Source: Massilia atriviolacea (lineage in GTDB: Bacteria; Pseudomonadota; Gammaproteobacteria; Burkholderiales; Burkholderiaceae_D). Taken from it: a stretch of DNA of 64,000 nt. This document shows, in pieces, positions 38,409 through 41,365 of this stretch. Positions within the stretch are counted from its first letter, which is position 1. Every line of letters starts with the position of its first letter. The translations under genes were made by a program, and so were the position numbers. Under the pieces are notes generated by a model, which was not told the DNA's origin, searched no databases, and saw only the letters and a list, made by a program, of their open reading frames with translations. Location of the stretch: contig NZ_RXLQ01000012.1 in assembly GCF_003953935.1 (NCBI RefSeq), positions 1 through 64,000 of the forward strand. The letters run 5' to 3'.

Positions 38409-38834
38409 TTAGGGGTGGCCGACCACCGAGGCGCTGGCCATCAGTTCGTCGATCAGCGCCAGCGAGTTCTTGCCGGACATGGCATGCGGGTTCAGTCCCG
38501 GCAAGTCCGAAAAGCGCAGCAGGGTCGAGGGATTGATGCGCGCCAGGTTGGCCTTGCCCATGGTCCAGCCGGCGTAGCGCCGCTCGTTGATTTCTTCATA
38601 GTGCAGCAGCACCACATCGGTGTGGCGCGGATCGCACACGATTTTCGCGTACAGCGCGTTGATCGCCTCGCGCCCGCCTTCGAGCACCTGCATGTAGACG
38701 TGCTCGCTATGGCACAGGATGCCCGTGATGCCCTGGGCCGGGTTGTGCGCGTGCGACTGGCACATGATGTCGTGGATGGTGTCGGGCTGCGGCGTGGCGA
38801 TGGCGCGGCTGGCGTACAGGAGACGGACGAGCAT
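38409..38834 (-). CDS. Short BLUF-domain blue-light sensor protein, 141 aa
   Basis: The protein is one BLUF domain (about 1-95) with the light-active Tyr7 in RLLYASRA, the flavin Asn region NPAQGITGILC and the Gln in YMQVLEGG. AGWTM supplies the usual late Trp/Met. The 45-residue C-terminal cap is helical. BLUF binds FAD non-covalently and shifts its hydrogen bonds in blue light. There is no output enzyme, so the signal must go to a partner. The MerR regulator two genes upstream in the same operon is the obvious candidate. It begins 18 bp after folE. Confidence 0.93.
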   Translation of the reverse strand: MLVRLLYASRAIATPQPDTIHDIMCQSHAHNPAQGITGILCHSEHVYMQVLEGGREAINALYAKIVCDPRHTDVVLLHYEEINERRYAGWTMGKANLARINPSTLLRFSDLPGLNPHAMSGKNSLALIDELMASASVVGHP

Positions 38835-38852
38835 GGTGTGATTCTCCGAGGA

Positions 38853-39560
38853 TCAGCGTTTAATCAGGGACAAAAACTCGCGTCGCAACGCCGGATCCTT
38901 GAGGAAAGAACCGTGCATGACGCTATTGATCATTTTCGCATCCATATCCTTCACGCCGCGCCACTGCATGCAAAAATGGTCCGCTTCCATCACGACCGCC
39001 AGGCCGTCCGGCTGCATTTTCTCCTGCAACAAGTCAGCCAGTTGCACCACGGCTTCTTCCTGGATTTGCGGACGGCTCATGATCCAGTTGGCGATGCGCG
39101 CGTACTTCGACAGGCCGATCAGCGCCGAATGCTCGTTCGGCATCACCCCGATCCAGACCTTGCCGATCACCGGGCACAGGTGGTGCGAACAGGCGCTGCG
39201 CACCGTGATCGGGCCGATGATCATCAGCTCGTTCAAATGCGAGGCGTTGGGAAACTCGGTCACCGGCGGCATCGGCACATAACGGCCGCCGAACACCTCG
39301 TTGATGAACATCTTCGCCACGCGGCGCCCGGTATCCTGGGTGTTGTGGTCGCTCACGGTATCGATCACCAGGCTTTCGAGCACGCCTTGCAGCTTGGCGC
39401 TGACCTCATCGAGCAGCTCGTCGAGTTCGCCCGGCTCGATGAAGCGCGCGATATTGTCGTTGGCGTGGAAGCGCGTCTTGCTGGCGACCAGGCGCTCGCG
39501 GATGCGCTCCGACACCGTCACGGTGCTCGGTTGGTATTCGGTAGTCAATCCGTTCGACAT
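38853..39560 (-). CDS. folE: GTP cyclohydrolase I FolE, 235 aa
   Basis: FolE converts GTP to dihydroneopterin triphosphate, the first step of tetrahydrofolate synthesis. The zinc-binding Cys and His residues are in SACSHHLCPVIGKVWIGV, and the later stretch RPQIQEEAVVQLADLL is typical. AGGAATT lies before the ATG at 39560. Its place between a MerR regulator and a BLUF sensor, with gaps of 40 and 18 bp, is characteristic of light-response clusters, where extra folate feeds photolyase or cryptochrome antennae. No photolyase gene is in the window. Confidence 0.95.
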   Translation of the reverse strand: MSNGLTTEYQPSTVTVSERIRERLVASKTRFHANDNIARFIEPGELDELLDEVSAKLQGVLESLVIDTVSDHNTQDTGRRVAKMFINEVFGGRYVPMPPVTEFPNASHLNELMIIGPITVRSACSHHLCPVIGKVWIGVMPNEHSALIGLSKYARIANWIMSRPQIQEEAVVQLADLLQEKMQPDGLAVVMEADHFCMQWRGVKDMDAKMINSVMHGSFLKDPALRREFLSLIKR

Positions 39561-39600
39561 GCTCAATTCCTGTGAAAAAAGATATAAAGTGCGGACCGGC

Positions 39601-40605
39601 TCACGCCAGCCCCTGCGGCAGCGGCAATCCTTCCGCCCGTGCCAGCCGTTCCAGTGCGCTTTCCAGCAGCGTGCGCGCCTGCGCCGCCGCCTGCCCGAGG
39701 TCCTGGTGCAAGGCCGCATCGGCCGGATTGCGCGCACCGCACTGCAGACTGTAACGCTCGAAGCTGCCGATCATCAGCAAAATCTCGGCCAGGTGGCGCG
39801 GACATTCGCACGCCACGCTATTGCTGGCCGCCGCCAAGGCCGCGAGGGCCTGGTCGTCCAGGCGGCGCGGCGCCGGCGCCGGCGCATCGCCCGCTGGCGG
39901 CAGCGGCGCCCGCGAGGCTGCCGCCAGCTGGGCGCGCCGGGCCGGAAATGCCACCTGGCACAGCAATGCTACCTCGGCCATGTCCGACGGCGCGCGCGCC
40001 ACCAGGCAGCCGAGCGCGCGCAGATGGCGGATGGTGGCGCTGGCGCAAAAACGGTACAGCACCACCACCGCCGCCGTGCCGCTCGCCAGGCGCGCCGCCG
40101 CCACCAGCGGCAGGGCCGCATCGTCCAGTTCCGACAACTCGATCAGCAGCACGTCGGCGTCGACCCCGTGCAGGGCGCCAGGGGCATCTTCCAGGCGGGC
40201 GCATGAATGGCGCACGTCGAGCGCCTGCCTGTCGCGCGCGCCGGCCGTCAACTGGCGCGCCAGACCGGCGCCCACCACTGCCACCCGGATCGGACCGCTG
40301 GCACCGCTGTCGCTGTTCAATGGCTCGGCCAGGTGCTGCAACTGTTCGAGCGGCAAATGGGCCATGGCGCCGATCGGATGCCCCTGGTCGACCAACTGCT
40401 TGATCAGGCTCAGCCGCCGCACCTGGGCGCTCGAATACAGGCGCTGCCCGCGCGCCGAACGTTGCGGCGTCGACACACCATAGCGCCGCTCCCACACCCG
40501 CAAGGTTTCCACAGGCAAACCAGCCAAGCGCGCGGCCACGCCACTGCGGTAAGCGCCGGTCTCGTCGGACCGCGCCGTATCGTGATCGGCAGAAAGTTCA
40601 TTCAT
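39601..40605 (-). CDS. MerR-family regulator with a degenerate cobalamin-type C-terminal domain, 334 aa
   Basis: A winged-helix MerR domain is at about residues 18-90 (YRSGVAARLAGLPVETLRVWERRYG, then RGQRLYSSAQVRRL). The C-terminal half (about 105-220) keeps the alternating strand-helix pattern of B12-binding domains (IRVAVVGAGLARQLT ... VLLIELSELDD) but lacks the DxHxxG motif. It resembles the LitR/CarH regulator group that has lost direct B12 sensing. The start is the ATG at 40605, with AAGGA eight bases upstream. It heads the operon with folE and the BLUF gene and probably represses it. Confidence 0.85.
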   Translation of the reverse strand: MNELSADHDTARSDETGAYRSGVAARLAGLPVETLRVWERRYGVSTPQRSARGQRLYSSAQVRRLSLIKQLVDQGHPIGAMAHLPLEQLQHLAEPLNSDSGASGPIRVAVVGAGLARQLTAGARDRQALDVRHSCARLEDAPGALHGVDADVLLIELSELDDAALPLVAAARLASGTAAVVVLYRFCASATIRHLRALGCLVARAPSDMAEVALLCQVAFPARRAQLAAASRAPLPPAGDAPAPAPRRLDDQALAALAAASNSVACECPRHLAEILLMIGSFERYSLQCGARNPADAALHQDLGQAAAQARTLLESALERLARAEGLPLPQGLA

Positions 40606-40650
40606 GGCGTCATCCTTCATGTTGAACCGCTTGTGAACCGTGAAAATCCA

Positions 40651-40681
40651 ATTATACCGCGTCAAATCATGGACAGTTGAA
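40651..40681 (-). promoter_or_regulatory. Candidate promoter of the MerR-folE-BLUF operon
   Basis: A consensus -10 box TATAAT (minus strand, 40656-40651) lies 45 bp before the MerR start. The -35 is weak; TTCAAC at 40681-40676 would give a long 19 bp spacer, as is common for MerR-controlled promoters. Confidence 0.4.
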
Positions 40682-40786: not shown

Positions 40787-41098
40787 ATGATGAAAAAGAT
40801 GTTGATGAGCTGCGCCATGCTGGCGTTCACGGGTGCCGCCCTTGCCGCGCCCGAAGCGGCGGCGCCGGCGGCCAAGTCGGCCCAGCAGAACAAGATGGTC
40901 ACTTGCAACGCCGACGCCGCTGGCAAAAAGGGTGACGAGCGCAAAGCCTTCATGAAGGACTGCCTGAGCGCCAAACCAGCGGCCCCGGCCGCCACGCCCC
41001 AGCAGAACAAGATGAAGACCTGCAACGCCGACGCCGCCGGCAAAAAAGGCGAGGAACGCAAAGCCTTCATGAAAACCTGCCTGAGCGCCGCAAAATAA
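40787..41098 (+). CDS. Secreted protein with two PsiF repeats, 103 aa
   Basis: A signal peptide (MLAFTGAALAAP) is followed by two near-identical PsiF repeats: QQNKMVTCNADAAGKKGDER with KAFMKDCLS, and QQNKMKTCNADAAGKKGEER with KAFMKTCLS. Each has two Cys residues that probably pair. PsiF is a phosphate-starvation-linked periplasmic protein in E. coli with unknown function. The start is either of two adjacent ATG codons. A repeat array begins 11 bp after the stop. Confidence 0.9.
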   Translation: MMKKMLMSCAMLAFTGAALAAPEAAAPAAKSAQQNKMVTCNADAAGKKGDERKAFMKDCLSAKPAAPAATPQQNKMKTCNADAAGKKGEERKAFMKTCLSAAK

Positions 41099-41109: not shown

Positions 41110-41347
41110 TGTCCACCCCGGTGCCAGGTCTGACAATCGGACACGACCTGGACAATAAGAGTTGCGCCGACCACATTTGTCCACCCCGGTGCCAGGTCTG
41201 ACAATCGGACACGGCCTGGACAATGAAAGACGCGCCAACCGCATTCAACCGTCGAGTCCGTGTCCACATGTCAGACCTGGCACCGGGGTGGACATATTCA
41301 ACCGTCGAGTCCGTGTCCACATGTCAGACCTGGCACCGGGGTGGACA
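41110..41347. repeat. Second array of the GGTCTGACA repeat, two direct and two inverted copies
   Basis: The unit CCGGTGCCAGGTCTGACA with CGGACACG occurs twice in plus orientation (from 41110 and 41178, period 68). Then it occurs twice in the other orientation as exact 53 bp copies (41243-41295 and 41296-41347). The core is the same as in the 33220 array. It fills the space between a plus-strand stop (41098) and a minus-strand stop (41366). Confidence 0.88.
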
Positions 41348-41365
41348 TCGGCGGCGGCTTGCGCC

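Follow-up and report, generated by a model that had tools for sequence, protein, structure and literature searches.

Light control through MerR-type regulators has been described in several bacteria. In Escherichia coli, BluF antagonises the MerR-like regulator BluR (PMC3509220). In Pseudomonas mendocina, the short LOV protein PmSB-LOV blocks, in the light, the DNA binding of PmlR2, a class II LitR of the kind that retains the B12-binding_2 four-helix domain, and the folE gene near PmlR2 is up 1.6-3.3-fold in the light (PMC9758184); in Pseudomonas putida, folE2, ufaM and phrB are subject to LitR-type control (PMC8508746). Class III LitR regulators show a light-dependent change in absorption (PMC9758184) and require a chromophore other than B12 (PMC6739363). 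Here we describe a three-gene operon, merR-folE-bluf, which encodes a MerR regulator, a GTP cyclohydrolase I (the enzyme with which folate, or vitamin B9, synthesis begins) and a short BLUF photoreceptor. It lies in the first 64,000 nucleotides (forward strand) of contig NZ_RXLQ01000012.1 of Massilia atriviolacea (GCF_003953935.1), the whole of which is hereafter called the window. Judged by gene order, the conserved partner of this type of bluf gene is folE, and this is the new element of the locus.

The P. mendocina system (PmlR2/PmSB-LOV with folM-folE-folX) and the operon each bring folE together with a LitR-type MerR regulator and a short flavin photoreceptor within one region. They differ in that the photoreceptor is a LOV protein there and a BLUF protein here, encoded directly 3' of folE, and in that the window MerR, unlike the class II PmlR2, has no four-helix B12-binding_2 domain. 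BluR/BluF likewise combines a MerR-like regulator with a BLUF protein, but its anti-repressor is a BLUF-EAL protein, whereas the window BLUF is a short PixD-type protein of 141 amino acids without EAL, encoded beside folE. Because of the precedents offered by BluR/BluF, P. mendocina, P. putida and class III LitR, light control of merR-folE-bluf is likely by analogy.

Organization of the operon

All three genes lie on the minus strand. The first, merR (39601-40605), encodes a LitR/CarH-like MerR regulator of 334 amino acids (gene calling; Pfam MerR_1, 2.4e-15); folE (38853-39560) encodes a GTP cyclohydrolase I of 235 amino acids that belongs to a 'light-cluster' clade (Pfam GTP_cyclohydroI, 2e-41; tree); and bluf (38409-38834) encodes a short PixD-type BLUF photoreceptor (Pfam BLUF, 4.3e-29; model and structure matches). 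All three Pfam matches pass the cut-off. The intergenic gaps are 40 bp (merR-folE) and 18 bp (folE-bluf). For merR, the ATG at 40605 is preferred over the upstream ATG at 40620, because the latter is missing in a Massilia frigida relative (L115). An earlier note on this DNA, made from sequence alone, had described three minus-strand genes with these gaps, for a MerR regulator, GTP cyclohydrolase I and a single-domain BLUF sensor. Coordinates, gene calls and Pfam confirm this, and the analyses below support one operon in which a MerR of the LitR/CarH kind is joined by FolE and by a short BLUF whose photoactive residues are intact.

The same gene order is found in 10 genomes, seven of the genus including the source (7.36 Mb in 80 contigs, completeness 100%) and three of genus g40. 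The genome search proposed in the earlier note thus recovered the order in nine further genomes (six in the genus, three in g40), a spread that argues against chance. In comparisons with three named Massilia relatives, folE differs by 29-35 synonymous and 0-1 nonsynonymous codons, bluf by 17-23 and 3-4, and merR by 64-78 and 38-48.

folE and bluf form a conserved gene pair

Used as query against named genomes, the window FolE yielded at least 593 relatives, the best 80 of which were taken as loci. At 79 of these 80, BLUF is encoded directly 3' of FolE on the same strand (the exception is L140), with a gap of 2-182 bp (median 14), and at most of them there is no MerR. The genera represented among the 80 loci include Massilia, Undibacterium, Duganella, Janthinobacterium, Limnohabitans, Polaromonas, Ramlibacter, Aquabacterium, Vogesella and Chitinimonas. 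Cupriavidus metallidurans CH34 has the pair as well, and no MerR match was found among the genes called in the 16.7 kb of that locus.

A similar association holds among 195 genomes of the family, in which the FolE kinds were told apart solely by their best E-values (about 1e-20 to 1e-46 for the window type, with the weakest three matches, G008, G071 and G086, possibly fragments; 1e-66 or better for the ordinary type; the intermediate copies G014 C28 and G186 C17 were left out of both kinds). Among the matches listed, 38 of 40 window-type FolE rows have a BLUF gene within 400 bp on the same strand, the other two being G121 and G003. By this sorting, 53 genomes have the window kind only, every one of them with a BLUF match somewhere, and 5 have both kinds; 21 genomes have BLUF without window-type FolE. 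The Fisher table of FolE type against BLUF (57, 1, 21, 116) gives p 2.9e-30, a value that is nominal, since the rows are related. Within the genus of the source, three genomes (G011, G052 and G075) have ordinary FolE only and no BLUF match. In a wider sample of 369 genomes of the class, source included, close FolE relatives occur in 6 genomes at 7 loci, and BLUF adjoins FolE at 5 of the 7, the window among them, with BLUF present in only 48 of the 369 genomes.

A strict LOV motif scan of the loci gathered first gave no match. Among the open-licence papers found by full-text searches on BLUF proteins, none describes a FolE-BLUF pair, judged by titles and abstract openings, and the unit, if functional, would be new.

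FolE belongs to a separate clade and is the only copy found

A tree of 48 FolE rows (35 + 13; the intermediate copies again omitted) splits the window kind from the ordinary kind with support 100/99, which places the window FolE in a clade clearly separate, by sequence, from ordinary FolE. Consistent with a divergent clade, the window FolE scores 146.4 bits against the NCBIfam folE equivalog, below the cut-off of 181.6. Residues C124, H127 and C197, at the zinc-ligand positions, are invariant in 76 aligned FolE (76 of 81 sequences were used).

In the source genome no GTP cyclohydrolase I other than the window FolE was found: a genome-wide domain search found no second PF01227 gene, and FolE2 (PF02649) gave no match there. 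The earlier note had proposed that the operon controls folate synthesis, perhaps for a photolyase antenna, which is too narrow a role for the only GTP cyclohydrolase I found. We also considered a reading in which the operon provides an additional FolE reserved for that antenna, and rejected it on the same ground.

A genome that has the FolE-BLUF pair, G096, also carries an ordinary FolE copy with an in-frame TGA (C1:5336222-5336755), which may reflect an exchange of one kind of FolE for the other.

The BLUF protein is of the short PixD type

The window BLUF consists of a BLUF domain and C-terminal helices, with no effector domain, and no BLUF gene besides bluf was found in the source genome. 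Residues Y7, N31, Q49, W90 and M92 are kept in 80 of 80 sequences (the window and 79 others), and the Tyr, Asn and Gln among them are the photoactive residues. The closest solved structures are PixD Slr1694 (3.8e-20) and Tll0078, and the model (predicted local distance difference test score, pLDDT, 87.8) fits PixD chains over its full length, with template-modelling (TM) scores of 0.83-0.90. By its modelled architecture and its photoactive residues, the protein is of the short PixD type. Its likeness to the PixD of cyanobacteria thus extends to the full-length fold and these residues; the difference lies in the partner, which for PixD is the response-regulator-like PixE (PMC5899715), as against FolE as gene neighbour here.

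The MerR regulator lacks the B12-binding features of LitR/CarH

Three parts can be distinguished in the window MerR, all on the minus strand: a helix-turn-helix DNA-binding region (residues 19-81 counted from 40605; 40363-40551; Pfam MerR_1 and model), a Rossmann-like alpha/beta domain (residues 106-219; 39949-40290; model, Foldseek and alignment) and a helical C-terminal domain (residues 251-324; 39634-39855; alignment and model). The model, based on five sequences and of moderate quality (pLDDT 74.3), shows the helix-turn-helix followed by an alpha/beta domain of five strands and a helical terminus. With this model Foldseek returned CarH first by whole-chain order, with poor superposition (TM 0.2); its matches to the middle domain are folds of the receiver type. 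The sequence match to CarH (5c8d) covers the helix-turn-helix only.

The cobalamin motif of B12-binding Rossmann domains, [DE]xHxxG, is absent from all 43 aligned MerR rows (taken from the gathered loci with identical rows removed; three represent the window protein itself, in whole or in part). This upholds the earlier note's description of a B12-domain-like fold without DxHxxG, since the model has a Rossmann fold and none of the 43 rows conserves the B12 motif. The PF02607 four-helix bundle, which in class I LitR/CarH lies between the helix-turn-helix and the Rossmann domain, has no Pfam match in the window MerR, and the model has no helices between residues 92 and 106. Set against class I LitR/CarH, the window MerR thus has the helix-turn-helix and neither the cobalamin motif nor the four-helix bundle; set against class II LitR, it has no B12-binding_2 four-helix domain by either Pfam or model. 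A role for it as a B12 photoreceptor was rejected on the missing motif and bundle. What the 43 rows do share is a set of invariant residues, C266, C268, P269, H271, F282, E283, Y285, S286, C289, H300 and E315, most of which form the C-terminal signature CxCPxH...FERYSxxC...H.

The source genome has a second LitR-like gene, on contig C54 (L067), in which the PF02607 and PF02310 B12-binding domains are both present. This paralogue is divergent from a DUF1365-CFA operon, and the promoter region contains two TTTGTCnTGGACAAA sites.

A candidate operator precedes merR

A de novo motif search of 39 merR upstream regions, reduced to 31 non-redundant ones, identified an 11-bp direct repeat, CGGTTCA-N4-CGGTTCA (40623-40640, minus strand), as a candidate MerR operator. 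It lies between the merR start codon and a TATAAT (40651-40656, minus strand), the candidate -10 of the merR-folE-bluf promoter, which is conserved in three Massilia relatives. The consensus promoter scan returned 0 full sigma-70 promoters in the region. The repeat motif has a log-likelihood of 193, vs 47 in one shuffle, and 22 of the 31 regions, which are also the motif's training set, score at least 16 bits; two of these 22 good matches (L084 and L072) are on the other strand. As a TGAACC-type direct repeat, the candidate operator differs in both spacing and sequence from the known LitR sites, TGTACA-N12-TGTACA, of the P. mendocina system (PMC9758184).

In the source genome the exact operator occurs once, in the merR-folE-bluf promoter. 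A search by operator pattern for a wider regulon gave 6 matches, 5 of them with one mismatch, and led no further. A different conserved element, TTCAGTTACCATA, lies upstream of FolE-BLUF in Undibacterium (e.g. L130 and L136) and others.

Related clusters in other genomes

MerR relatives often neighbour photolyase, fatty-acid and redox genes. In the g40 genomes L078 and L079, a PF04244 photolyase-related gene starts 16 and 4 bp 3' of bluf, and in L077 a relative of that gene lies about 500 bp further on. The source genome has one PF04244 gene, 68-70% identical to the three g40 copies, and one PF03441 photolyase, both on contigs other than that of the operon. The photolyase link anticipated in the earlier note is therefore seen in relatives, as a PF04244 gene directly 3' of BLUF (G040 and G120) and as phr in a cluster of Burkholderia anthina.

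That cluster (L195) groups a MerR homologue (36% identity, signature CECPRH...FERYSDEC) with FolE (63%), a sigma-70 family gene ('ECF-like' is our own label), a CFA-type synthase and a photolyase. It resembles the window operon in its CECPRH...FERYS...C MerR and same-clade FolE, with photolyase, CFA-type and FAD genes, and differs in having no annotated BLUF, a sigma-70 family gene after FolE and a MerR of only 36% identity. Its MerR is probably a class III LitR. On a plasmid of Caballeronia sp. SBC1 (L196), folE is overlapped by a MerR gene with the signature CECPRH...FETYSDEC; at a distance of about 7 kb, beyond insertion-sequence genes, there is a gene for a photoactive yellow protein. In Janthinobacterium sp. 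UMAB-56, a FADox-DUF1365-CFA series, FolE, BLUF, MerR and a renalase-like gene (names by similarity) occur together.

Proposed mechanism

We propose that merR-folE-bluf is a folate operon of a light regulon, controlled by MerR, in which BLUF acts mainly on FolE. Taken as a whole, we hold this proposal tentatively and give it slightly less than an even chance. It starts from what is observed, namely the gene content, the folE-bluf pairing, the FolE clade, the conserved residues and the operator-like repeat. The pair stays together in differing genomic settings, and the operon may have been assembled from two older units, the FolE-BLUF pair and an autoregulating LitR/CarH-type MerR, whose gene would have been placed in front of the pair. 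In the dark, MerR would bind the direct repeat, downstream of the -10 and ahead of the start codon, and so reduce transcription; light would relieve this repression, sensed either by the Cys/His domain of MerR or via a partner. Repression cannot be complete, because the window FolE is the only one found. An action of BLUF on FolE is put ahead of one on MerR because the conserved gene partner of BLUF is FolE; through a putative contact between the two proteins, light would alter FolE activity or assembly. Folates are destroyed by light, and light would in this way adjust the total folate supply, both for the photolyase cofactor and for replacement of the folates lost.

A more specific form of this idea, which we consider rather improbable, is that BLUF serves FolE as a regulatory subunit gated by light. 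PixD forms decamers in which two pentameric rings are stacked (PMC5899715), and GTP cyclohydrolase I, a decamer of D5 symmetry, binds two GFRP pentamers in mammals (PMC7750480). By analogy, a PixD-type pentameric ring might dock on the FolE decamer as GFRP does. The likeness to GFRP is one of symmetry only, a ring-shaped regulator on a D5 FolE decamer, and the match between PixD and FolE is suggestive only. To our knowledge, GFRP is not a BLUF protein and does not sense light.

Alternative explanations

Of the alternatives, the one that fares best, and which we regard as a genuine contender though still short of even, is that MerR senses light by itself, with a non-B12 chromophore as in the class III LitR of Burkholderia, perhaps held in its Cys/His helical domain, and that BLUF serves a separate purpose. 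The invariance of the C-terminal signature in 43 of 43 rows and the occurrence of its CxCPxH...Cys elements in the MerR proteins of the B. anthina light cluster and Caballeronia sp. SBC1 fit this possibility, as do the light-dependent absorption (PMC9758184) and non-B12 chromophore (PMC6739363) of class III LitR. However, the same Cys/His set would equally suit a metal or iron-sulphur redox sensor. Class III LitR combines a LitR-type helix-turn-helix with a C-terminus in which no known domain is recognised, in a light cluster of the Burkholderia type; the likeness of the window MerR to it runs through the B. anthina MerR (36% identity and the CxCPxH signature).

Several observations weigh against the proposed mechanism, some on the side of BLUF and some on that of MerR. 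A conserved gene pair is no proof of protein contact, and no FolE-BLUF fusion was found among 139 BLUF-motif open reading frames of the (overlapping) gathered loci. Same-clade FolE without an adjoining BLUF exists (L140, G003, G121, G418, G536-C1, Burkholderia, Caballeronia and Roseibium), and the invariant N-terminus of the clade, RFHANDNI, is no mark of BLUF binding, because it is present also in the BLUF-less Burkholderia FolE. Other neighbour families recur too, one in 20 and one in 13 of the 56 loci (of 80) resolved by a rough clustering with a gene caller trained on the window. As to MerR, one-mismatch matches to the operator elsewhere in the source genome number 5, not clearly above the 4 of a reversed-pattern control. 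The repeat is also absent upstream of FolE not preceded by MerR (62 regions, mean score -0.48 vs -0.83 shuffled); MerR control is therefore no general feature of the FolE-BLUF pair.

The missing fusions and the BLUF-less clade members would also fit a simple co-expression of FolE and BLUF, with BLUF acting on an unlinked partner and FolE having no direct part in light signalling. We consider this somewhat unlikely: the pair is kept while its neighbours change (BLUF at 79 of the best 80 loci, as against 20 of 56 for the next family), and no other BLUF gene was found in the genome.

The explanation given in the earlier note, in which the light-activated short BLUF binds MerR and derepresses the operon, with folE as no more than its output gene, appears unlikely. 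It draws on the shared operon of the 10 genomes, on the LitR-like MerR with an operator-like repeat in the operon promoter, and on the two precedents of flavin photoreceptors acting on MerR-type regulators, BluF/BluR (PMC3509220) and PmSB-LOV/PmlR2 (PMC9758184). But BLUF follows FolE rather than MerR. Among the 195 family genomes, MerR occurs in 66; 24 of these lack a BLUF match, and the two genes lie within 1 kb of each other in only 10, so that BLUF-MerR does not hold up as the main pairing. Co-occurrence of the two in 42 genomes is moderate (nominal p 2.6e-6). MerR is a near neighbour in the ten genomes that share the gene order; in G069 about 2 kb separate it from the FolE-BLUF pair, and in G121 it is near a BLUF-less FolE.

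The least probable alternative casts MerR as a sensor of redox state or metals, and the operon as a response to oxidative or photo-oxidative stress and not to light. It would suit the three invariant Cys and two invariant His of its helical domain and the ferritin-like ('Dps-type' is our own label), DJ-1 and HSP20 genes identified by Pfam among the window neighbours of the operon, but the cluster neighbours in relatives (photolyases, a CFA-type operon and, about 7 kb off in Caballeronia, the photoactive yellow protein gene) point to light.

Sequences adjoining the operon

Divergent from merR lies a PsiF-repeat gene (40787-41098), and the region between the two contains the element TAAATATACGTCAG, kept in four Massilia. 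Between this gene and one for a TonB-dependent receptor, positions 41110-41348 hold two repeat pairs, of 68-bp and 53-bp units, which have GTCCACCCCGGTGCCAGGTCTGACA in common in opposite orientations.

Implications

In the FolE-BLUF pair, a short BLUF protein has a candidate partner that is both specific and conserved across many relatives, and the Cys/His signature of MerR offers a concrete target in the search for the chromophore of class III LitR-type regulators. If BLUF is indeed a regulatory subunit docked on FolE, blue light would directly set the step that commits the cell to folate synthesis, and would do so across many Burkholderiales and relatives. If light sets the cell's only FolE, the whole folate supply would be under light control, beyond the cofactor of photolyase.

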